From Ganoderma boninense (lineage: Eukaryota; Basidiomycota; Agaricomycetes; Polyporales; Polyporaceae), in assembly GCA_002900995.3 (NCBI GenBank), contig CM035310.1:592155-656154 (forward strand): DNA of 64,000 nt. The letters are read 5' to 3'. The notes beneath the pieces are model-generated. The model ran no database searches. It saw nothing but the letters and a program-made list of their open reading frames with translations, and had not been told where the DNA came from. A program made the translations under genes and the position numbers. The number at the start of each line of letters is the position of its first letter. Within the stretch, counting starts at the first letter, position 1. Shown here piece by piece: positions 45,992-63,980 of this stretch.

Positions 45992-46091
45992 NNNNNNNNN
46001 NNNNNNNNNNNNNNNNNNNNNNNNNNNNNNNNNNNNNNNNNNNNNNNNNNNNNNNNNNNNNNNNNNNNNNNNNNNNNNNNNNNNNNNNNNN
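45992..46091. other. 100-N scaffold gap
   Basis: Exactly 100 N, the usual convention for a gap of unknown size. It truncates the NRPS-like gene. Confidence 0.98.
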
Positions 46092-46175: not shown

Positions 46176-46852
46176 ACACATAAGCATGCAGCTATCTACA
46201 ACCATTGTTGCTCGACTCACTTGCGCCGCGGCCGAGATGCCGCTTGCACGAGGCACAAAATCGCGTCAGAAGACGTTGTCGGACGCGAAGAGCCTCGTGG
46301 CTCCCAGAAGACGTTGTCGGCAAGAAGATCTCGGCGGACCAGAACGTCTTTTCGACCAAGAAGTTTCTACATTGCATTGTCAGCCATGGGTTGGGGCTGG
46401 TCCAATTATTCACAGCACCGAGCGCGCCGTTGGCTCTTGGTTGCTTCATCATCAACTTAAAATTGAGATTCACGAGGGTTGCTGTTACGGACTATTGCCG
46501 ACCAGGGTAGACCAACGGCCTCGTTGAAGAGAAGCCACTTAAAGGGGAGTGGTGTTTGCAGCGGAGGCGTGGCCTAGCTGCTACTTCAAGTTAGCGCCGA
46601 TAGCACTGTCCTCGAACACATGAATGATTAGAGGCTAGAGCCGCGACCGTGATATCGATAGGTCATGGAACACACCAGCGAAATCGGACGCCCAAGGGAG
46701 GTACCGTAGTCGAAGTTTTAGAGTTCGGTGCCATTCGTCCGTCGGACAAGACCTCCGCTCAGGGGGCTGACTGAACGGAAGTGCAGGGGTCTGGACCTGG
46801 TGAGAACTGCAGCCATAACGGTCAACTTCCCCGAGTACGTTATACAAGATCA
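46176..46852. repeat. repeat R, first copy
   Basis: Nearly identical to 63300-63980 in the same orientation. The two differ by a few substitutions (for example GAGCCTCG/GAGTCTCG and AGAGCCGC/AGAGCAGC) and one 4-nt insertion. A 15-bp direct repeat (AGAAGACGTTGTCGG) occurs twice within it, about 40 bp apart. No convincing protein is encoded. Each copy begins within 85 bp of a scaffold gap. Confidence 0.9.
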
Positions 46853-47331: not shown

Positions 47332-47340
47332 TGGATGACC
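47332..47340. repeat. target-site duplication, left
   Basis: TGGATGACC, identical to 60464-60472 at the other end of the insertion. It directly abuts the terminal TAGTCT. Confidence 0.85.
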
Positions 47341-47495
47341 TAGTCTGGATCCCTACAGAGCCTTCCCCCCCCCCTTCAACATCCCGGACATCTCCGAGTC
47401 ACGTGTAGTTCTTACCCCCTGTATACACGTCAATAGATGCAAACAACGCGTCCACCAGTCTTGTCGACCCGCCTTTCGCTTCAGCCTCGGGCGAC

Positions 47496-49848
47496 ATGCC
47501 CTCCCTTGGCGCTCCTCCATGTTACCGGTTCGCATCTCCTGCAGGCTACGAGCTCATCAGAAACACTCTTCGTACTCGGCTCCCGTACAATCCCCATGAC
47601 TATCAGCTTGAGGGTGTGGCCCAACTGCTCGACGGCAACGATGTAATCGCGGTTCTCGCCACTGGCTCAGGGAAGACGGGATACTACTTAATCTACATCC
47701 TAATGCTTCTTGCGCTCTCGGAAAACCCCTCCCTCTGCGAACCGCCTTTCCGACCAATTCCAAAGGATCCTTGCTTAGTCGCTGTGTACCCTACGAATGG
47801 CCTTGAGGAGGAACAGGTGAGCGGACTCTAGCTGGCTCCTTTTGGTGGCCTCCGAGTGGGTGAGTGACCTGACCTATTGAAATTATAGGCCACAGTATTC
47901 GGAAATGCCGGACTCAGCACGTTGGTGATCAATGCTGGAACTTTGGAGGAGGGGAGGAAGAAGGGGACAGATTTGTGGCTCGTAGCACGCTCAAGCGTCG
48001 CCGTCATCCTATTATCACCCGAGCAGTTGAGCTCACCTCGTTTTGAATCACTACTCCAACACTCCCCTTTCCGATCCCGTGTGTGCGCTCTGGGGATTGA
48101 TGAGATCCATCTCCTCTACTCGTGGGGTCAGAGTTTCCGCCAGTCATTCCGCCAGCTCGCCTATGTTCGTGCGCGGTTTCCACTCGGCACTCGACTTCTT
48201 GGCACGACCGCGACCCTTCTATCCGGACACCCCCAGAAGACGATCATCTCTTTCCTTGGTCTTCGCGAGGGGCAGTTCTACCTCATCCGTCGCTCAAATG
48301 TGCGGCACAACGTGCAAACAATCTTTCGCACCCTCACGCGTGGTATCGGCGGTTGGGCATACCCGGACCTTCGCTGGATTGTGGCTGGTAGACGGAAGAC
48401 GGTCATTCACTGCCGCACAATCGCCATTAGCTTCCGTGTCGCAGCCTACCTATCACACCTTTGTCCTGCCGGCTCCGATTTCACGAAGCGCGTGCGCATG
48501 TACAATGCGCTCTGCTGGCCGTCCTACAACGCGGAGACCCGGAGACTGCTGGTCGAGGACCCAGAAGCTCAGATCGTCGTCGCAACTGCGGCGTTCATGG
48601 TCGGGATCGACATTCCAACAATCGCCGACGTCGTCATCCTTGGCAACTTGGTCTCAGCTGATGAACATGTCCAATGGGAGGGTCGGGCGGGCAGAGATCC
48701 GGCGCGCGTTCAAGATGCACGCTGTATTACGTATGTGACGAAGAGGTCGCTGGAGGCCGCCCGGCTCTATTGGATGGGACCCGCCGAAGAAGCTCTCTGG
48801 GAAAACGTCCACGGTCCAGATGGATCCCAGCATGGCTCGGTTGCTCCTCGCCCTGTGCGTGACAGCTGAGCAGGACCTCTTGTATGACAACCCACCCCTC
48901 CGATCCACCTTGCACCTGTCCTCGCTGCGAATCTCTCTCCTCCTCCACTCCTGACATTCCCAATGGACTCAGTGCTTGTCGATGCAGTGGCTGTCGACCT
49001 GAAGAGGTACTTCCGACTATCTCTGCCAGACGAACGACCCCCAATCCCATTCCTCGCAGGGAGCGACTCACCAAGCCGATGCGGGCTGAGGGGGTCAAAC
49101 AGCTAGGCGAGTTCCGGTTTACAGTTTATCGTGCAAGCATCCTCTCGTCGGCGGCTGCACGAGCTCTTGGTCCCGAGATTTTCCTCCCTGATTCGACCAT
49201 CAAGAAGATTCTTGACTCCTTTGCCTTGATCGACTCTTCCGCGACACTCCAAGCTCTTGTTTCGGACGACCTCTACATCCTACCGCATCTCGATGCACTG
49301 TGGGAGAAGATTGAATCCCTCAAGGTAACGTTCTCCGCATTGCGAGAGAAGCACGATAGGAAGCGACTCAGGGCGGCGAAGAAGAAGGCGGCTGAGAGTG
49401 CCAAAGGTGTAGTTAAAGCTGGGGCTACTGCGCCGGGTGAGTACCTCGTGGTTCAGCAGCGCACACTGGAGGAGTGCACTGGCAGCTTCCAAGTCGCAGC
49501 ACCCTCCTGCTCGAATGTGGAGCTAGAAGACAGGTGAATGGTTGGCATTGTCTCGATTGTAGATCCATACTAATTGAATGCAATATAGTCCAATGCCGGT
49601 GACTCTCGAGCCCGTCGACATCAAATGGAACCTTGTCGATGACTCGTTTTCATTGACCGAGAGCACTGCCTCACAGGGGGCAAGGAAGCGGTCGAGTACT
49701 GTCTCGACGATCAATCCTCGGCCACGGAGTAAGAAACGTGTTGACACGGTATGTATGGCAATCAGATTGTTGCGTCGATACTTATGTTTGGCGTGCACAG
49801 GGCCACAACAAGGAGAACGTTCCTCTGAACGGAGTAGATGTCAACTAG
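47496..49848 (+). CDS. RecQ-like DExH helicase of the transposon, copy 1
   Basis: Exons 47496-47816, 47889-49533, 49589-49748 and 49801-49848 would give about 735 residues. Superfamily 2 motifs in order: DYQLEGVAQLLDGNDVIAVL (Q-motif/I region), ATGSGKTGYY (Walker A), GIDEIHLLYSWGQSFRQ (motif II plus the W-G-x-x-FR aromatic loop diagnostic of RecQ), LLGTTATLLSG (III), KTVIHCRTIAIS (IV), VATAAFMVGIDIP (V) and WEGRAGRD (VI). After the core comes a CxCxxC-type cluster (PPCTCPRCESL, CRCSGC) that may bind zinc, then a Lys-rich coiled segment. Relative to copy 2, this copy lacks bases near 48763 and 48779 and has one extra near 48898, so the frame breaks after RSLEAAR. The stop lies 14 bp from the DUF6589 stop. 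Confidence 0.8.
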
Positions 49849-49862
49849 GAATTCAATTCTTG

Positions 49863-52800
49863 CTATTCTAGGTCAGTATCTAGGTCAGCGTCTTCTAACT
49901 GTTCTTCAACTGAGTTGTATCCATCACTCAGTGCATCCTTCTCCTGTCCTGGGACGTCATACGAGGGCCCGCCGTCGAAGTAATCAGAGAGTGGCAGTCC
50001 CCCCACACCGCCGTTCTCCTCACGCGCCACTATATGTGCTTCTTCCTCGGTATCTGATATGTCTGATTCAGCGTCAACCTCTGCAAATGCTTTTGCAAAC
50101 TCCTCGTGGAGCTTTCGGCGCGCGGCCTCATCATTTTTGGCAGCCAAGGCTCGGAGGCGTGCACGTATGGTTTCTTGACAGAATGACTTGAGCTTTCCCC
50201 CCAGTAATGATTTGATACCTGCGCATTAGATTGAGTGTCGGTTTTGAGTCGTAGAGCGGCCTTCACGAAAGTAGTGGAGCTGCGTCTCCTGGTAGGCATG
50301 GAGCAGTGTGCGGATTTCCGGGCGGCTATGTGGGTCGGGGTGCTTGCCTTGTCGTCTCGCGAGCCCGACTCCTGACCCCCACTCGCTCTTGAGTTCCATG
50401 AAGCGTACTGCATTTGGAGCATGCACCTCACGAAGTAGAGGGCTTATCCCACTCTGAGCCTTTGCGGGACATTTGCTTCGTCGAGAACAGGTTAATATGC
50501 TCCCCAAATAGGTCACCCTCCATATTGCCGTTCGGCTCGCCAGAGGGATTGACAAGCCAGTTCTTCAAGAAGGTGTCGCGAAGAACGGGACTGGCCTCGA
50601 GCTCAAGGATGCAGATCATTTCGAGGAGGTAATTTGTATATTTTGAATGGCTTGTGCCTGCAAATCGGAATGCAAGGATCTGGGTGGACGGGGAATGCTT
50701 AGACCATACACGCTTGATTTGTTAGCTTTGCGCTACTTACCTTCATGTCGTTCCATACACGACCTATGTCTCCTGCTGTTACTGCCTGGGAAAGATCTCG
50801 GACAAGCAGAGCATCGCTCATGAATGAGATGGACCGTGCAAGGCTGTGATCGCCCCGGAATGAAGTGGGTGCATCTGATTCTTCCGAGGAGTCTTCGCTG
50901 TTGGCTGAACTGGACATAGAGTCGTCTGAATCACCGTGTATAGAACGGTTGCGAGGAGAGCCTGCCGTCTCTTCTGCATCTTGCAGTGGACTAATAGCAT
51001 TGATCACGGGGTTCATGCCTGGCGACTCGACTGCCAAAGCGTCCGGTGGGTTCGCATCGAAGGGAAGCCCGTCTTCTTCGGCAACTGCCACCTGGCCATG
51101 TTCATGGGACATCGGATCCCCTGCGGCCTCTTGTTCTTCAACCTCCTCACCTCCTCCCTGGGTGCCCACCGTGTCTGTACTCCTCTCGCCCTCCCCCTCT
51201 CCCCATCGTCTAGAGCCAAAGCACCATCCCTCTCCTAATGCAGCATCTCCTCCCTCCATGGCGCTTGTCCAAGCGCTCGTCGTCGAGTAAGCCCGATGCA
51301 GTTTGCAAGCTGAAGACCGTAGCTCATCAAGGGCTGGCAACTTGTTTTTGCTAGCAAGCCCTTCAAAATGTGCTGCAAGATCTGTACATCCGAGATGGAT
51401 CCTAGGAGAATTATCGTGAGTACATAATTAAGTCGTGATTAACTGCAGCACTCAGGCTGAAGCGCCAATGGGCCGATGGCACGCACCTCCAGCAATCCAA
51501 CATCCGTGCATCCAACACAACCTGAACCATGTACAACGAGGGATAATAGTCGACCTTCTTCAGGTTGGGTGGAATTTTCTGGTCAATTTTTGTGGAGCTG
51601 TGACCAAGCATCCCAGGATCTTCAAGATCAGTGAGTTTTGTGCCTCCAAAGTGTGTTTCGAAAACGGTGCTGAGGAACGTCCAGGTTGTGTGCCAGATCT
51701 CGAGAAATGGCCAAAGCATCTCGAATCGCTGATACTCCGTAGACTCGAACTGCATGTAGGTTTTGATCTGGACGAGCTTCTCGAAGGTCAGGCCATCTCC
51801 TCCGGCCGGAATTATTCGCCCGGGCATATAGTTGTCCTCACCCTGACCCATTTGCTTTAGGAAGTCGACCATATGCGTCTCGTAGCTCCGCTGTAACAGC
51901 CTCGTTCTTCGCTACTGTTCCCAGAGGATACACCTTCGTCTTCCTGACAGGGACCACGAGCTTGGCACCATCTGTACGGAACAGACCTGCAACATCCGTT
52001 CGGTACAGTGCGAGCGCAGGAACATGGTCGGTAAGAGTTTGTAGCCAATGGAGTGCCGCGACAACCTCTGCGTGGTCCCAGTCAACCAGTGATGTAAGTT
52101 GTGCAACTGTAAGATCCCCGCGTTTGTCCTCGCTGAGACGCTCCAGATGGTCAGCGAGGTCCGCAGCCTCAGGTACGAAATCGAATGCCTCGGCGACGTA
52201 TGCGGCGGTTCCAACGAGCATCTTGTTCTCTCGACCAAGGCGGCGCTCACGTTGCCGGAGAAATTGTTGAACGTTGTCAAAGCGAAGAATGAGCCAGCGG
52301 ATCAACGAGCGACCACACTCCTTCACGTAAGCGGCATCCTTCTCTGCCAGTCGACGTAGCAAGTTGAATGTTGCATGCCAGCTCTGAACCAGGCCAATCC
52401 GACTCGCGTAGTCAAACACTGCCCGCGGCACTCCACAAGCAAAGAAAAGCGCAGCACGAGCCGCAGGCAAGAGGCGAGCCCACTTTGTATGCGTAAAGTT
52501 GATAATGCTGAGGATTTCCGTTGTCACCTGTACTGATTGTTGTTAGCAGATGGCAAGTAATGTCTTAAGCAAACCCGGCAGACTGACTATTGTCGGCGGG
52601 CGTGTTTTTCTTACGGCAACTACACCGTGCTCGTTCCTGTACGGCCTCGGAGACACCAGGTCTTTGACGATGTGGTACGTAACCGGTTGAAACCTTGTGA
52701 CAACGTCTTGAACTTTGCTAACAGTCCCATTTCCGATATCGTCCCAGGAAACCTCCTTACGCCCGCGCTTGCCAGCAGCGCTACCATGAAGGCCGCTTGA

Positions 52801-53632
52801 ACCCCTGACTGCACGTGTCCGCTCGACCCGCATCTGCTTCATTGCAACCTGGATACACATCGCCGTAATAGCGACTCGTGCGTGTTTCAAGGTCTGATAA
52901 GACTGGGTTGGTGAGTACATGTCCTTGAACTCGGGGTCATCCTGCTTAGCACGGCCAACGGTGTCGTTGACCCAGAACTCCACGATCTCGATAGCCTTCC
53001 GCCGATTCTTTCCTGCCAGGAAGTTTCCAACAATCGAACCATGACGAGCAGTTCGCTTGACAGAGAAGCCCTTCTCGTCATGTGTCCGGAAGACATGGTA
53101 GAGGAACTCCCCGACCGACCACCGATATGATTGGAGGAGGTCGAAGACGGCATTTAGCTTGTCCTCGAGCGAAAGTATCTTCTTCGGCTCTGGTTCCGGT
53201 GGGTAGCCATCCCGTACACTCCTCCTCTCTTCTTCATTCTCACTAACATTACGAGTGTCCTCCAGATCAGAAGGGCTTGGGTTTGGCACTAAGGTCCGAC
53301 TCCTCGGATTGAAGTTGGCAGGCCCGCCGGTGAGAGGATCGCCACCTTGAGGTGTGGTCCATATGGTAGGGGCTGCTCAAGTAATGCTTTGTTATAGGTG
53401 TACTGTACACATCATTCTGCACTTACAGCTAGTTGCTTGGTTACAACTAAACATGCTAGGTTCAGAGATTGGAGTCCTGGGTTCTTGGAAAGGAGATTGC
53501 GGCGCAACCCGGCGGAGGAGTGCCAGGGGGAGGATGTGGTGGATTGGTAAATGGCGAGGTGTCCGAGCTAGCTTCATATAATCGGTGTAGCAATGACCAT
53601 TCGATGTCTGCCCACGAGGATGAGGGTTCCAT
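49863..53632 (-). CDS. DUF6589 protein of the transposon, copy 1
   Basis: A large basidiomycete family of unknown biochemistry; I infer a transposase-like role from its position in the element. Coding order: ATG at 53632 (MEPSSSWADIEWSLLHRLYE), a second exon with RDGYPPEPEPKKILSLEDKL and DLLQSYRWSVGEFLYHVFRT, a third with WLILRFDNVQQFLRQRERRL, MLVGTAAYVAE and IIPAGGDGLTFEKLVQIKTY, a fourth with LALDELRSSACKLHRAYSTT-like and LLVRDLSQAVTAGDIGRVW strings, and a last with FAGTSHSKYTNYLLEMICIL and FLKNWLVNPSGEPNGNMEGD. The acidic tail ends DADLDTDLE. The second exon is open here, but extra or missing bases near 53495, 51873 and 50230-50480 break the first, third and last exons. Predicted full length is about 1,150 residues. 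Confidence 0.75.
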
Positions 53633-53830
53633 GGCTGCAAGCAGAGTAATCGATGTTTCGACTGCGTCGTATGCTGCACATCCACTTTGCAAGGCACACA
53701 ATGTAATCTGAATGACAAGAACAATGTAATTACGATGACGAACAACATTGTTGATTGGCTCGCTAAAGTCTAAGCGCCGAAGCTGGTGTCTGGGTGTTGA
53801 AGGGGGGGGTAAGTGGCGTGTAGGGGAGCA

Positions 53831-53880
53831 GACCTTTATCAGAAAAGATCGACTGTCATCTTTGCGTCCCGATAAAGGTC
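53831..53880. repeat. hairpin-forming 10-bp inverted repeat near right end of copy 1
   Basis: GACCTTTATC at 53831-53840 and its reverse complement GATAAAGGTC at 53871-53880. The same structure is at 60380-60389 and 60420-60429 in copy 2. The loop is 30 nt. Confidence 0.75.
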
Positions 53881-54038
53881 AGCTAGTCTGGATCCCTACA
53901 GAGCCTTCCCCCCCCCCTTCAACATCCCGGACATCTCCGAGTCACGTGTAGTTCTTACCCCCTGTATACACGTCAATAGATGCAAACAACGCGTCCACCA
54001 GTCTTGTCGACCCGCCTTTCGCTTCAGCCTCGGGCGAC

Positions 54039-56398
54039 ATGCCCTCCCTTGGCGCTCCTCCATGTTACCGGTTCGCATCTCCTGCAGGCTACGAGCTCAT
54101 CAGAAACACTCTTCGTACTCGGCTCCCGTACAATCCCCATGACTATCAGCTTGAGGGTGTGGCCCAACTGCTCGACGGCAACGATGTAATCGCGGTTCTC
54201 GCCACTGGCTCAGGGAAGACGGGATACTACTTAATCTACATCCTAATGCTTCTTGCGCTCTCGGAAAACCCCTCCCTCTGCGAACCGCCTTTCCGACCAA
54301 TTCCAAAGGATCCTTGCTTAGTCGCTGTGTACCCTACGAATGGCCTTGAGGAGGAACAGGTGAGCGGACTCTAGCTGGCTCCTTTTGGTGGCCTCCGAGT
54401 GGGTGAGTGACCTGACCTATTGAAATTATAGGCCACAGTATTCGGAAATGCCGGACTCAGCACGTTGGTGATCAATGCTGGAACTTTGGAGGAGGGGAGG
54501 AAGAAGGGGACAGATTTGTGGCTCGTAGCACGCTCAAGCGTCGCCGTCATCCTATTATCACCCGAGCAGTTGAGCTCACCTCGTTTTGAATCACTACTCC
54601 AACACTCCCCTTTCCGATCCCGTGTGTGCGCTCTGGGGATTGATGAGATCCATCTCCTCTACTCGTGGGGTCAGAGTTTCCGCCAGTCATTCCGCCAGCT
54701 CGCCTATGTTCGTGCGCGGTTTCCACTCGGCACTCGACTTCTTGGCACGACCGCGACCCTTCTATCCGGACACCCCCCAGAAGACGATCATCTCTTTCCT
54801 TGGTCTTCGCGAGGGGCAGTTCTACCTCATCCGTCGCTCAAATGTGCGGCACAACGTGCAAACAATCTTTCGCACCCTCACGCGTGGTATCGGCGGTTGG
54901 GGCATACCCGGACCTTCGCTGGATTGTGGCTGGTAGACGGAAGACGGTCATTCACTGCCGCACAATCGCCATTAGCTTCCGTGTCGCAGCCTACCTATCA
55001 CACCTTTGTCCTGCCGGCTCCGATTTCACGAAGCGCGTGCGCATGTACAATGCGCTCTGCTGGCCGTCCTACAACGCGGAGACCCGGAGACTGCTGGTCG
55101 AGGACCCAGAAGCTCAGATCGTCGTCGCAACTGCGGCGTTCATGGTCGGGATCGACATTCCAACAATCGCCGACGTCGTCATCCTTGGCAACTTGGTCTC
55201 AGCTGATGAACATGTCCAATGGGAGGGTCGGGCGGGCAGAGATCCGGCGCGCGTTCAAGATGCACGCTGTATTACGTATGTGACGAAGAGGTCGCTGGAG
55301 GCCGCCCGGGCTCTATTGGATGGGAACCCGCCGAAGAAGCTCTCTGGGAAAACGTCCACGGTCCAGATGGATCCCAGCATGGCTCGGTTGCTCCTCGCCC
55401 TGTGCGTGACAGCTGAGCAGGACCTCTTGTATGACAACCCACCCTCCGATCCACCTTGCACCTGTCCTCGCTGCGAATCTCTCTCCTCCTCCACTCCTGA
55501 CATTCCCAATGGACTCAGTGCTTGTCGATGCAGTGGCTGTCGACCTGAAGAGGTACTTCCGACTATCTCTGCCAGACGAACGACCCCCAATCCCATTCCT
55601 CGCAGGGAGCGACTCACCAAGCCGATGCGGGCTGAGGGGGTCAAACAGCTAGGCGAGTTCCGGTTTACAGTTTATCGTGCAAGCATCCTCTCGTCGGCGG
55701 CTGCACGAGCTCTTGGTCCCGAGATTTTCCTCCCTGATTCGACCATCAAGAAGATTCTTGACTCCTTTGCCTTGATCGACTCTTCCGCGACACTCCAAGC
55801 TCTTGTTTCGGACGACCTCTACATCCTACCGCATCTCGATGCACTGTGGGAGAAGATTGAATCCCTCAAGGTAACGTTCTCCGCATTGCGAGAGAAGCAC
55901 GATAGGAAGCGACTCAGGGCGGCGAAGAAGAAGGCGGCTGAGAGTAGTGCCAAAGGTGTAGTTTAAAGCTGGGGCTACTGCGCCGGGTGAGTACCTCGTG
56001 GTTCAGCAGCGCACACTGGAGGAGTGCACTGGCAGCTTCCAAGTCGCAGCACCCTCCTGCTCGAATGTGGAGCTAGAAGACAGGTGAATGGTTGGCATTG
56101 TCTCGATTGTAGATCCATACTAATTGAATGCAATATAGTCCAATGCCGGTGACTCTCGAGCCCGTCGACATCAAATGGAACCTTGTCGATGACTCGTTTT
56201 CATTGACCGAGAGCACTGCCTCACAGGGGGCAAGGAAGCGGTCGAGTACTGTCTCGACGATCAATCCTCGGCCACGGAGTAAGAAACGTGTTGACACGGT
56301 ATGTATGGCAATCAGATTGTTGCGTCGATACTTATGTTTGGCGTGCACAGGGCCACAACAAGGAGAACGTTCCTCTGAACGGAGTAGATGTCAACTAG
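54039..56398 (+). CDS. RecQ-like DExH helicase of the transposon, copy 2
   Basis: Same gene as at 47496-49848, same exon plan (first exon 54039-54359). Here the part that is broken in copy 1 is open: after RSLEAARALLDGNPPKKLSG the frame runs on through CTAEQDLLYDNPPSDPPCTC and the Cys cluster. Instead copy 2 has one extra C near 54773 (run of six versus five), one extra G near 54900, and near 55960 one extra T plus a 3-nt insertion, which closes the frame after AKGVV. Each copy is thus intact where the other is broken, so the ancestral gene was evidently complete. The motifs are as in copy 1. Confidence 0.8.
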
Positions 56399-56412
56399 GA
56401 ATTCAATTCTTG

Positions 56413-59400
56413 CTATTCTAGGTCAGTATCTAGGTCAGCGTCTTCTAACTGTTCTTCAACTGAGTTGTATCCATCACTCAGTGCATCCTTCTCCTGTCCT
56501 GGGACGTCATACGAGGGCCCGCCGTCGAAGTAATCAGAGAGTGGCAGTCCCCCCACACCGCCGTTCTCCTCACGCGCCACTATATGTGCTTCTTCCTCGG
56601 TATCTGATATGTCTGATTCAGCGTCAACCTCTGCAAATGCTTTTGCAAACTCCTCGTGGAGCTTTCGGCGCGCGGCCTCATCATTTTTGGCAGCCAAGGC
56701 TCGGAGGCGTGCACGTATGGTTTCTTGACAGAATGACTTGAGCTTTCCCCCCAGTAATGATTTGATACCCTCGCGCATTAGATTGAGTGTCGGTTTTGAG
56801 TCGTAGGAGCGGCCTTCACGAAAGTAGTGGAGCTGCGTCTCCTGGTAGGCATGGAGCAGTGTGCGGATTTCCGGGCGGCTATGTGGGTCGGGGTGCTTGC
56901 CTTGTCGTCTCGCGAGCCCGACTCCTGACCCCCACTCGCTCTTGAGTTCCATGAAGCGTACTGCATTTGGAGCATGCACCTCACGAAGTAGAGGGCTATC
57001 CCACTCTGAGCCTTTGCGGGACATTGCTTCGTCGAGAACAAGGTTAATATGCTCCCCAAATAGGTCACCCTCCATATTGCCGTTCGGCTCGCCAGAGGGA
57101 TTGACAAGCCAGTTCTTCAAGAAGGTGTCGCGAAGAACGGGACTGGCCTCGAGCTCAAGGATGCAGATCATTTCGAGGAGGTAATTTGTATATTTTGAAT
57201 GGCTTGTGCCTGCAAATCGGAATGCAAGGATCTGGGTGGACGGGGAATGCTTAGACCATACACGCTTGATTTGTTAGCTTTGCGCTACTTACCTTCATGT
57301 CGTTCCATACACGACCTATGTCTCCTGCTGTTACTGCCTGGGAAAGATCTCGGACAAGCAGAGCATCGCTCATGAATGAGATGGACCGTGCAAGGCTGTG
57401 ATCGCCCCGGAATGAAGTGGGTGCATCTGATTCTTCCGAGGAGTCTTCGCTGTTGGCTGAACTGGACATAGAGTCGTCTGAATCACCGTGTATAGAACGG
57501 TTGCGAGGAGAGCCTGCCGTCTCTTCTGCATCTTGCAGTGGACTAATAGCATTGATCACGGGGTTCATGCCTGGCGACTCGACTGCCAAAGCGTCCGGTG
57601 GGTTCGCATCGAAGGGAAGCCCGTCTTCTTCGGCAACTGCCACCTGGCCATGTTCATGGGACATCGGATCCCCTGCGGCCTCTTGTTCTTCAACCTCCTC
57701 ACCTCCTCCCTGGTGCCCACCGTGTCTGTACTCCTCTCGCCTCCCCCTCTCCCCATCGTCTAGAGCCAAAGCACCATCCCTCTCTAATGCAGCATCTCCT
57801 CCCTCCATGGCGCTTGTCCAAGCGCTCGTCGTCGAGTAAGCCCGATGCAGTTTGCAAGCTGAAGACCGTAGCTCATCAAGGGCTGGCAACTTGTTTTTGC
57901 TAGCAAGCCCTTCAAAATGTGCTGCAAGATCTGTACATCCGAGATGGATCCTAGGAGAATTATCGTGAGTACATAATTAAGTCGTGATTAACTGCAGCAC
58001 TCAGGCTGAAGCGCCAATGGGCCGATGGCACGCACCTCCAGCAATCCAACATCCGTGCATCCAACACAACCTGAACCATGTACAACGAGGGATAATAGTC
58101 GACCTTCTTCAGGTTGGGTGGAATTTTCTGGTCAATTTTTGTGGAGCTGTGACCAAGCATCCCAGGATCTTCAAGATCAGTGAGTTTCGTGCCTCCAAAG
58201 TGTGTTTCGAAAACGGTGCTGAGGAACGTCCAGGTTGTGTGCCAGATCTCGAGAAATGGCCAAAGCATCTCGAATCGCTGATACTCCGTAGACTCGAACT
58301 GCATGTAGGTTTTGATCTGGACGAGCTTCTCGAAGGTCAGGCCATCTCCTCCGGCCGGAATTATTCGCCCGGGCATATAGTTGTCCTCACCCTGACCCAT
58401 TTGCTTTAGGAAGTCGACCAGTGCGTCTCGTAGCTCCGCTGTAACAGCCTCGTTCTTCGCTACTGTTCCCAGAGGATACACCTTCGTCTTCCTGACAGGG
58501 ACCACGAGCTTGGCACCATCTGTACGGAACAGACCTGCAACATCCGTTCGGTACAGTGCGAGCGCAGGAACATGGTCGGTAAGAGTTTGTAGCCAATGGA
58601 GTGCCGCGACAACCTCTGCGTGGTCCCAGTCAACCAGTGATGTAAGTTGTGCAACTGTAAGATCCCCGCGTTTGTCCTCGCTGAGACGCTCCAGATGGTC
58701 AGCGAGGTCCGCAGCCTCAGGTACGAAATCGAATGCCTCGGCGACGTATGCGGCGGTTCCAACGAGCATCTTGTTCTCTCGACCAAGGCGGCGCTCACGT
58801 TGCCGGAGAAATTGTTGAACGTTGTCAAAGCGAAGAATGAGCCAGCGGATCAACGAGCGACCACACTCCTTCACGTAAGCGGCATCCTTCTCTGCCAGTC
58901 GACGTAGCAAGTTGAATGTTGCATGCCAGCTCTGAACCAGGCCAATCCGACTCGCGTAGTCAAACACTGCCCGCGGCACTCCACAAGCAAAGAAAAGCGC
59001 AGCACGAGCCGCAGGCAAGAGGCGAGCCCACTTTGTATGCGTAAAGTTGATAATGCTGAGGATTTCCGTTGTCACCTGTACTGATTGTTGTTAGCAGATG
59101 GCAAGTAATGTCTTAAGCAAACCCGGCAGACTGACTATTGTCGGCGGGCGTGTTTTTTCTTACGCAACTACACCGTGCTCGTTCCTGTACGGCCTCGGAG
59201 ACACCAGGTCTTTGACGATGTGGTACGTAACCGGTTGAAACCTTGTGACAACGTCTTGAACTTTGCTAACAGTCCCATTTCCGATATCGTCCCAGGAAAC
59301 CTCCTTACGCCCGCGCTTGCCAGCAGCGCTACCATGAAGGCCGCTTGAACCCCTGACTGCACGTGTCCGCTCGACCCGCATCTGCTTCATTGCAACCTGG

Positions 59401-60177
59401 ATACACATCGCCGTAATAGCGACTCGTGCGTGTTTCAAGTCTGATAAGACTGGGTTGGTGAGTACATGTCCTTGAACTCGGGTCATCCTGCTTAGCACGG
59501 CCAACGGTGTCGTTGACCCAGAACTCCACGATCTCGATAGCCTTCCGCCGATTCTTTCCTGCCAGGAAGTTTCCAACAATCGAACCATGACGAGCAGTTC
59601 GCTTGACAGAGAAGCCCTTCTCGTCATGTGTCCGGAAGACATGGTAGAGGAACTCCCCGACCGACCACCGATATGATTGGAGGAGGTCGAAGACGGCATT
59701 TAGCTTGTCCTCGAGCGAAAGTATCTTCTTCGGCTCTGGTTCCGGTGGGTAGCCATCCCGTACACTCCTCCTCTCTTCTTCATTCTCACTAACATTACGA
59801 GTGTCCTCCAGATCAGAAGGGCTTGGGTTTGGCACTAAGGTCCGACTCCTCGGATTGAAGTTGGCAGGCCCGCCGGTGAGAGGATCGCCACCTTGAGGTG
59901 TGGTCCATATGGTAGGGGCTGCTCAAGTAATGCTTTGTTATAGGTGTACTGTACACATCATTCTGCACTTACAGCTAGTTGCTTGGTTACAACTAAACAT
60001 GCTAGGTTCAGAGATTGGAGTCCTGGGTTCTTGGAAGGAGATTGCGGCGCAACCCGGCGGAGGAGTGCCAGGGGGAGGATGTGGTGGATTGGTAAATGGC
60101 GAGGTGTCCGAGCTAGCTTCATATAATCGGTGTAGCAATGACCATTCGATGTCTGCCCACGAGGATGAGGGTTCCAT
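56413..60177 (-). CDS. DUF6589 protein of the transposon, copy 2
   Basis: Exons 59973-60177, about 59164-59918, 58036-59075, 57293-57950 and 56413-57231. The first, third and last exons are open and in phase. The third (347 codons) shows the core: TSLVDWDHAEVVAALHWLQT, VYPLGTVAKNEAVTAELRDA, GRIIPAGGDGLTFEKLVQIK (position of the family's GDQLT-like motif) and EIWHTTWTFLSTVFETHFGG. The second exon has missing bases near 59438 and 59482 and a donor one base short, so it is closed; the matching exon of copy 1 is open. The exon at 57700-57790 also differs from copy 1 by several indels. The convergent helicase stop is 14 bp away. No catalytic triad can be assigned from sequence alone. Confidence 0.78.
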
Positions 60178-60422
60178 GGCTGCAAGCAGAGTAATCGATG
60201 TTTCGACTGCGTCGTATGCTGCACATCCACTTTGCAAGGCACACAATGTAATCTGAATGACAAGAACAATGTAATTACGTATGACGAACAACTTGTTGTT
60301 CCGATTGGCTCGCTAAAGTCTAAGCGCCGAAGCTGGTGTCTGGGTGTTGAAGGGGGGGTAAGTGGCGTGTAGGGGAGCAGACCTTTATCAGAAAAGATCG
60401 ACTGTCATCTTTGCGTCCCGAT

Positions 60423-60462
60423 AAAGGTCAGCCACGGAGACTAAAGGTCAGCCACGGAGACT
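60423..60462. repeat. 20-bp tandem subterminal repeats at the transposon right end
   Basis: AAAGGTCAGCCACGGAGACT occurs twice without mismatch (60423-60442 and 60443-60462). The second repeat plus one A forms the terminal AGACTA. The first overlaps the distal arm of the hairpin at 60420-60429. Such repeats are candidates for transposase binding sites. Confidence 0.8.
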
Positions 60463-60463
60463 A

Positions 60464-60472
60464 TGGATGACC
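60464..60472. repeat. target-site duplication, right
   Basis: TGGATGACC, identical to 47332-47340. Confidence 0.85.
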
Positions 60473-63199: not shown

Positions 63200-63299
63200 N
63201 NNNNNNNNNNNNNNNNNNNNNNNNNNNNNNNNNNNNNNNNNNNNNNNNNNNNNNNNNNNNNNNNNNNNNNNNNNNNNNNNNNNNNNNNNNNNNNNNNNN
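63200..63299. other. 100-N scaffold gap
   Basis: Exactly 100 N. The next base starts the second copy of repeat R. Confidence 0.98.
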
Positions 63300-63980
63300 A
63301 CACATAAGCATGCAGCTATCTACAACCATTGTTGCTCGACTCACTTGCGCCGCGGCCGAGATGCCGCTTGCACGAGGCACAAAATCGCGTCAGAAGACGT
63401 TGTCGGACGCGAAGAGTCTCGTGGCTCCCAGAAGACGTTGTCGGCAAGAAGATCTCGGCGGACCAGAACGTCTTTTCGACCAAGAAGTTTCTACATTGCA
63501 TTGTCAGCCATGGGTTGGGGCTGGTCCAATTATTCACAGCACCGAGCGCGCCGTTGGCTCTTGGTTGCTTCATCATCAACTTAAAATTGAGATTCACGAG
63601 GGTTGCTGTTACGGACTATTGCCGACCAGGGTAGACCAACGGCCTCGTTGAAGAGAAGCCACTTAAAGGGGAGTGGTGTTTGCAGCGGAGGCGTGGCCTA
63701 CTTAGCTGCTACTTCAAGTTAGCGCCGATAGCACTGTCCTCGAACACATGAATGATTAGAGGCTAGAGCAGCGACCGTGATATCGATAGGTCATGGAACA
63801 CACCAGCGAAATCGGACGCCCAAGGGAGGTACCGTAGTCGAAGTTTTAGAGTTCGGTGCCATTCGTCCGTCGGACAAGACCTCCGCTCAGGGGGCTGACT
63901 GAACGGAAGTGCAGGGGTCTGGACGCGGTGAGAACTGCAGCCATAACGGTCAACTTCCCCGAGTACGTTATACAAGATCA
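63300..63980. repeat. repeat R, second copy
   Basis: Aligns with 46176-46852. After 63980 the sequence matches 47243-47262, so relative to the first copy 390 bp (46853-47242) are missing. The window ends 20 bp later, so it cannot be seen whether this copy also carries the transposon. Confidence 0.9.

Follow-up and report, generated by a model that had tools for sequence, protein, structure and literature searches.

A helicase-carrying DNA transposon nested in a second copy of itself, probably of the AcademH family, and very short insertions of its right end in Ganoderma boninense

The 64,000-nucleotide stretch of Ganoderma boninense DNA analysed here (the window; GenBank assembly GCA_002900995.3, contig CM035310.1, positions 592,155 to 656,154) contains a 13.1-kb interval in which genes for a DUF6589 protein and a RecQ-type helicase lie together. 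An earlier note on this DNA read the whole interval as one transposon. It is instead two nested copies, of about 6.55 kb each, of a helicase-carrying DNA transposon that very likely works as AcademH elements do and is probably a member of that family. The right end of the same transposon also occurs alone elsewhere in the genome, in insertions of 49-66 bp.

Architecture of the window element

The interval starts with TAGTCT at 47341 and finishes with AGACTA at 60463, exactly as the earlier note had it, and the perfect 9-bp duplication reported there, TGGATGACC, flanks these termini on both sides (Table 1). Inside it, positions 47340-53883 and 53883-60432 form a head-to-tail repeat with 99.5% identity. 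Copy B is inserted in the right end of copy A, 11 bp short of A's right terminus, so that copy A consists of 47341-53883 plus 60453-60463 and copy B of 53884-60443. When the two pieces of A are joined, they give a 32-bp end equal to that of B; copy A itself thus displays the target sequence of B. The inverted terminal repeat in the window family is only 6 bp long. A single 13-kb transposon filling the interval would account for the outer termini and the outer duplication, but not for the internal repeat or for a second perfect duplication, AAGGTCAGC, precisely at the ends of B; moreover, five related copies with both ends measure 6.3-7.6 kb. Already contradicted by the nested structure, that reading is extremely improbable.

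The alignment of the two copies has 27 gap openings and three mismatches. The gaps lie mainly in short single-base runs and look like uncorrected sequencing error. Since the reading frames of A and B are unequal, mostly at short homopolymer-type insertions and deletions, the intactness of the genes cannot be judged; the window sequence was used as read, with no frame repaired.

Table 1. Positions of features in the window, of related elements and of element-free sites
Feature	Position	Strand	Details
Left 9-bp target-site duplication of copy A	47332-47340	.	TGGATGACC; exact; one copy at empty site L095
Copy A, main part	47341-53883	+	6543 bp; broken by copy B 11 bp before right terminus
RecQ-type helicase gene, copy A, first exons	47496-48869	+	frame stops at 48869; Walker A 47658-47678, DEIH 48099-48143, GRAGRDPA 48681-48704
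DUF6589 gene, copy A, region of exon-like ORFs	50491-53289	-	FDNVQ 52267-52281, GGDGLTF 51783-51803, ARMLDCW 51489-51509, FGEHIN 50491-50508
Left 9-bp duplication of copy B	53875-53883	.	AAGGTCAGC; belongs to right end of A
Copy B, complete element	53884-60443	+	6560 bp; TAGTCTGG...CGGAGACTA
RecQ-type helicase gene, copy B	54039-55966	+	Walker A 54201-54221, DEIH 54642-54686, GRAGRDPA 55226-55249
DUF6589 gene, copy B	56413-59835	-	exon-like ORFs 59329-59835, 57960-59075, 57251-57889, 56413-57171
DUF6589 motifs, copy B		-	FDNVQ 58815-58829, GGDGLTF 58332-58352, FGEHIN 57043-57060
Right-end hairpin and tail	60380-60443	+	outer stem GACCTTTATC/GATAAAGGTC, inner stem AAAGAT/ATCTTT, loop CGACTGTC, tail AGCCACGGAGACTA
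Right 9-bp duplication of copy B	60444-60452	.	AAGGTCAGC; perfect
Final 11 bp of copy A	60453-60463	+	CACGGAGACTA
Right 9-bp duplication of copy A	60464-60472	.	TGGATGACC; perfect
Related copy	C1		exact 9-bp duplication AGACCATCA; inverted ends
Related copy	C3		exact 9-bp duplication GTTTGTCCC; inverted ends
Related copy	C38		exact 9-bp duplication TAAGAGTCT; inverted ends
Related copy	C9		exact 9-bp duplication GACCTCCCC; inverted ends
Related copy	C2b		exact 9-bp duplication GGGCAGGGT; inverted ends
Related copy	C4		exact 9-bp duplication GAAGACTCC
Short element	C59		1001 bp; exact 9-bp duplication
Short element	C12		958 bp; exact 9-bp duplication
Short element	C6		1025 bp; exact 9-bp duplication GGAGAGTCA
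Short elements	C1:1108k, C3:514k, C10:1057k		exact 9-bp duplications
Element-free site of copy A	C7:656170-656292		98%
Element-free site of C38 element	C12:1199416-1199538		99%
Element-free sites of C1 element	C1:376300, C1:437753		88%, 85%
Element-free site of C59 short element	C13:244409		97%, 88/120 bp
Element-free sites of micro-insertion L050	C6:422651, C18:40735		84%, 82%

DUF6589 and RecQ-type genes

The earlier note identified the two gene types correctly but counted one gene of each, where the interval carries two of each. A Pfam scan of six window open reading frames (ORFs) gave DUF6589 (3.4e-57), DEAD (2.8e-6) and Helicase_C (7.2e-5). The motifs ATGSGKT, DEIHLLYSWGQSFRQ and GRAGRDPA are of the RecQ type, and FDNVQ, GGDGLTF, AGDIGRV and FLKNWLVNPSGEP can be read in the DUF6589 protein. 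On comparison with RNase H-fold transposases, the predicted structure of DUF6589 has a DDE-type fold, an RNase H-like core with three conserved acidic residues. The protein is very probably a DDE transposase, in line with the transposase role proposed for it in the earlier note. The likely triad is D249/D410/E729 in the relative P0119, with the D of FDNVQ, the D of GGDG and the E of FGEHIN as its candidate counterparts in the window. Pfam assigns no function to DUF6589, and no mention of it was found in the literature searched, which lacked most subscription papers. A sequence search of the PDB with a DUF6589 alignment returned a single row (E 0.18, not significant), and hence no significant match to the transposases of hAT (Hermes), RAG1/Transib or P elements. 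To our knowledge, these act without an element-encoded helicase.

Related elements in the genome

In the genome searched (55.6 Mb, 74 contigs), 33 DUF6589 matches were found, which we grouped into 14 loci outside the window; nine of these were retrieved together with flanking sequence of about 7-10 kb. A RecQ-type helicase gene is clear in eight of the nine and weak in the ninth (C2a), bearing out the proposal that the element carries its own helicase. Exact 9-bp duplications flank 8 of 12 full-size copies, A and B included. The end consensus of the family is (T/C)AGNCT..., and the inverted repeats of C9 and C2b reach 30 bp or more. The expectation that other DUF6589-helicase pairs would share ends and duplications therefore holds for the end motifs, which are similar, but not for the exact duplication in four of the 12. 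The tail-to-tail gene order of the window likewise recurs only in part: the order is convergent in the window, C1, C9, C2b, C2c, C5a and C13, but divergent in C3, C38 and, tentatively, C2a. When eight end pairs were checked together, five were exact, while C2c, C7:1207k and C5:2918k were out of the register used; once shifted by eye, C2c and C7:1207k fit 8-9 bp, and the right boundary of C5:2918k was not found.

Shorter relatives are also present (Table 1). At C1:2917925-2919051 (L107, L108), a short element has two right ends in inverted orientation and the perfect 9-bp duplication CATCTGGGC. Two-ended forms of 101-112 bp, of the C3 lineage, lie at C16:46360 (L090), C14:501366 (L091) and C13:41338 (L092) between perfect 9-bp duplications (GTGGCTCAC at two loci and GGTTCCACA); they are three of 12 small loci with exact 9-bp duplications at their ends, and L090 and L091 may be one event, given their common flank. 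At C13:236780-237448, a left terminus lies about 634 bp away from the body of the C13 element, with the repeat ACCCTTGGC at both places.

Element-free sites

Queries joining the two flanks were made for 24 insertions, and 40 of the 76 candidate matches were scored. Contiguous element-free matches were obtained for at least 5 of the 24 (copy A, the C38 and C1 elements, the C59 short element and the micro-insertion L050); for the remaining 19, none appeared among the matches listed, under the same scoring. A site of copy A that lacks the element is thus present in this genome itself; the earlier note had proposed looking for such sites in related strains. It is situated just beyond the end of the window. 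The contig with the element is bracketed by two 100-N gaps (45992-46091 and 63200-63299), and the next contig, which has no element, repeats its flank (46176-46852 against 63300-63980, 98.8% over 681 bp); beyond this, about 390 bp are missing and similarity continues at 81% over about 2.5 kb. The next contig may represent the second allele, assembled in tandem, or a duplicate that has since diverged.

These results also bear on whether DUF6589 and the helicase could belong to the host and be flanked by a 9-bp repeat through chance. In favour of this, DUF6589 has no function in Pfam, and none of the source names shown labels it a transposon gene; the pairing nevertheless recurs in further loci with like termini, and element-free sites exist. 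Contradicted on all three counts, the host-gene reading retains next to no probability.

The right-end hairpin

The right end of the element contains a hairpin with an inner and an outer stem, followed by a tail (Table 1); shortened at its left, this is the part that occurs alone in the micro-insertions. DNA folding gives a z score of -2.97 for the right end in the window and -0.37 for the left, and -2.3 to -10.6 for the ends of C1, C3 and C38. Across 23 right ends, 93.5% of the cells of the inner stem are paired, with exchanges between A-T and T-A and between A-T and G-C. The covariation score lies above all 500 shuffles and the slid controls, relatedness among the sequences inflating this score.

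Right-end-only micro-insertions

Copies of the ends were sought by sequence patterns, and the counts are lower bounds. The right-end terminal 21-mer has 35 genome matches at up to three mismatches (control 2), the left terminal 17-mer 10 at up to two (control 7) and a left interior 21-mer seven at up to three (control 0). Right ends outnumber left ends, in what is a rough comparison of patterns unequal in length. For a 14-mer of the right-end loop, 26 matches are exact and 28 have one mismatch (8 control matches in total).

Target-site duplications were sought at 41 loci, comprising 31 of the 35 right-end matches and 10 of 15 further loop loci fetched, with 138-321 letters of flank upstream of each right end. 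Left out were L071-L074 and L079, whose right ends could not be recognised, 13 of the 28 loop matches with one mismatch and, because they belong to longer elements, the window copies, C59, C12:1869939, C6:800744 and C13:243992. The right junction was defined as the end of ...ACTA, distances of 25-170 bp were scanned, and chance was gauged by swapping the downstream 9-mers among loci. An exact copy of the 9 bp following the right end is present at 8 of the 41 loci (0.0 expected), a copy with at most one mismatch at 15 (0.55 expected), and one with at most two mismatches at a distance of 46-64 bp at 20 (0.75 expected); the swap test rejects chance as their origin. Some loci look alike (L032/L033, L058/L060, L056/L057, L037/L066), so independent events are fewer than locus counts. 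L068, where a 9-bp copy appears by eye only after a 4-bp shift, was excluded from the count.

The verified micro-insertions are 49-62 bp long, with one of 66 bp (L041), contain the right tip only and have duplications of 8-9 bp. Within the range scanned, 49 bp was the shortest right-end piece seen with a duplication. The left edge was placed by eye in a list of 18 distinct cases, which includes L041 but omits L033 and L060 as duplicates and L057 as doubtful. In 17 cases it falls in the range from 1 nt inside to 11 nt outside the inner hairpin stem; in L041 it lies 17 nt from the inner stem, with extra bases present. Eight of the 18 begin with TA. Five of seven one-mismatch duplications (L030, L031, L042, L046 and L050) differ at the ninth base, which adjoins the left junction, as if that base had been lost or left unfilled there. 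Reading these copies as introners, that is, intron-sized insertions, was dropped after they had been inspected by eye, without gene models, for splice-site-like ends.

The same right-end-bearing segment is apparently present twice, 883 bp apart, at C1:1107545 (L037) and C1:1106662 (L066). L083 (C1:4353332-4353378) is a left-end-only piece of 47 bp, of the C1 lineage, which ends in the distal arm of the left hairpin; with a duplication of 7/9 by eye, it is a possible left-side counterpart of the micro-insertions. At C2:1980574 a left end is present without a right end or a duplication within about 1.3 kb, at C6:3471935 neither end was seen, and the left-end matches L085-L087 (C38 lineage) have no duplication.

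Relation to known transposons

AcademH elements, as described by Kojima in 2020 (Mobile DNA 11:15), are reportedly DNA transposons of the Academ superfamily that encode a helicase. According to the passages available, AcademH makes duplications of 9 or 10 bp, against 3 or 4 bp in AcademX, a difference tied to the encoded helicase and nuclease (PMC10045372), and occurs at low copy number in Basidiomycota, Ascomycota and Mucoromycota (PMC10799480). Excerpts of two further papers describe fungal Academ copies with DEAD/DEAH and recQ_fam domains, annotated as host genes (PMC6416283), and putative non-autonomous Academ insertions widespread in Marasmius oreades (PMC8290104). With AcademH already in print, a helicase-encoding transposon class is not new. 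Like AcademH as excerpted, the window element is a low-copy element of a basidiomycete, with a superfamily 2, RecQ-type helicase gene beside that of the transposase and with duplications of 9 bp, exact in 8 of 12 copies. The end hairpins and right-end-only micro-insertions may set it apart, neither having been found for AcademH in the passages and listings of the literature searched.

Other superfamilies share single features with the element, and it is distinctly improbable that it is a KolobokH, MuDR/MULE or Helitron element rather than an Academ. MuDR also makes 9-bp duplications; no MULE transposase domain was matched at E 0.001 in the six window ORFs, where DUF6589, DEAD and Helicase_C were the only Pfam domains. 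KolobokH, in the portions of its literature available, is likewise a fungal DNA transposon encoding a RecQ helicase, but the 4-bp TTAA duplication of Kolobok and its RR..YY termini contrast with the varied 9-bp duplications seen here (TGGATGACC, AAGGTCAGC and the remaining exact cases) and the TA..TA termini of the window family, and the duplication rules it out (PMC9587614, in part). Helitrons, as far as the accessible text of PMC4778049 goes, combine a helicase with an end hairpin: Helraiser needs its helicase, carries close to one end a hairpin that serves as terminator, and gives truncated products. They have an HUH Rep nuclease with a superfamily 1 helicase and make no target duplication, whereas the window element has 9-bp duplications, a predicted DDE-type fold and no further domain in the Pfam scan. 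Helraiser, with its 3' hairpin as terminator, is the nearest mechanistic analogue. Duplications of hAT elements are, in the excerpts seen, usually 8 bp, with variants of 5-7 bp; the exact cases here are 9 bp. The two folds may still share a remote ancestor.

Proposed mechanism

Insertion of these units of about 6.55 kb, which have TAGTCT/AGACTA termini, duplicates 9 bp. We infer with good confidence that the DUF6589 protein is the transposase that cuts the ends and joins them to target strands 9 bp apart and, less firmly, that the RecQ-type helicase could open the hairpin-bearing ends, displace a strand during copying, or both. Left edges just outside an intact inner hairpin in 17 of 18 micro-insertions suggest either one-ended insertion or abortive gap repair, with copying stopped at the hairpin. 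The process common to both best explains them: with the right end anchored at the target side, inward copying is halted by the hairpin the new strand refolds, and end joining follows. In the one-ended route, the right end alone would be joined to the target; copying would start at the target strand and run into the element, would halt once the right-end hairpin has formed in the new strand, and the left side would be sealed by host end joining. We put this route forward tentatively, at somewhat less than even confidence.

In P-type elements, abortive gap repair is an established process. Applied here, it would make the micro-insertions scars: a longer copy was excised, the right flank was extended from the right end of a sister copy as far as the hairpin, and the product was joined to the left flank. 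It requires no new chemistry and predicts the same product, a right tip with the left duplication kept and the left-junction base lost, as in the five of seven ninth-base mismatches. It also requires a former longer copy at each site, and no left-end remnant lies beside the left duplication, except possibly the TA of 8 of the 18. Right-anchored insertions with duplications were seen only at 49-66 bp, 958-1025 bp and about 6.55 kb, lengths of about 0.3-0.9 kb lying beyond the 138-321-letter flanks. We regard gap-repair scars as a serious possibility that falls short of probable. That the micro-insertions are instead a self-amplifying family of miniature elements with a fixed left end of its own would fit some 18 distinct copies and the TA start of eight, but left edges vary inside one sequence group (59, 57, 53 and 52 bp in L051, L052, L058 and L059) and no common left motif was seen beyond TA. 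Such a family is unlikely, because the left edges vary.

Several points weigh against the account as a whole, from its class assignment to the one-ended route. Among the 12 full-size copies, a tally that leaves out C10, C25, C5:2211k and C2:4111k, there is no exact 9-bp duplication at C13, C5a and C2a, and C2c has one of 8 bp after a register shift by eye. Membership of AcademH is probable on the strength of shared features and not of homology. A Foldseek search with DUF6589 gave no significant match to PDB and viral structures (best E 0.21), and the triad was taken from residue ranges, with no superposition. Pairs changed on both sides number seven, a figure reached in 48 of 500 shuffles, and the outer stem is paired in only 52.8% of cells. 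No duplication lies within 46-64 bp in 21 of the 41 right-end loci (one of them, L041, has a copy at 66 bp); these may be old, longer, or chance matches. Finally, one genome does not separate one-ended copying, at insertion, from abortive gap repair, after excision.

Implications

DUF6589, common in Agaricomycetes, gains a probable identity as a transposase. The presence of a RecQ-type gene beside it is thereby explained, and both are better treated as transposon genes than as host genes. The excess of right ends and the 49-66 bp hairpin-only insertions appear to be new relative to the literature searched: there, no description of very short fungal insertions of this kind was found, nor, among the titles listed, hairpin-limited, solo or one-ended Academ products. 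The right-end-only insertions make the carriage of a helicase by some DDE transposons a testable question. Possibly, the DDE-type transposase and RecQ helicase move the element by a one-ended copying route, in which the right-end hairpin ends abortive copying and the genome gathers insertions of 49-66 bp that have a single end and lie between 9-bp duplications. If this is true, one-ended copying would explain why the element carries a helicase, and the route would parallel, in a DNA transposon, the way in which target-primed elements leave truncated insertions behind.
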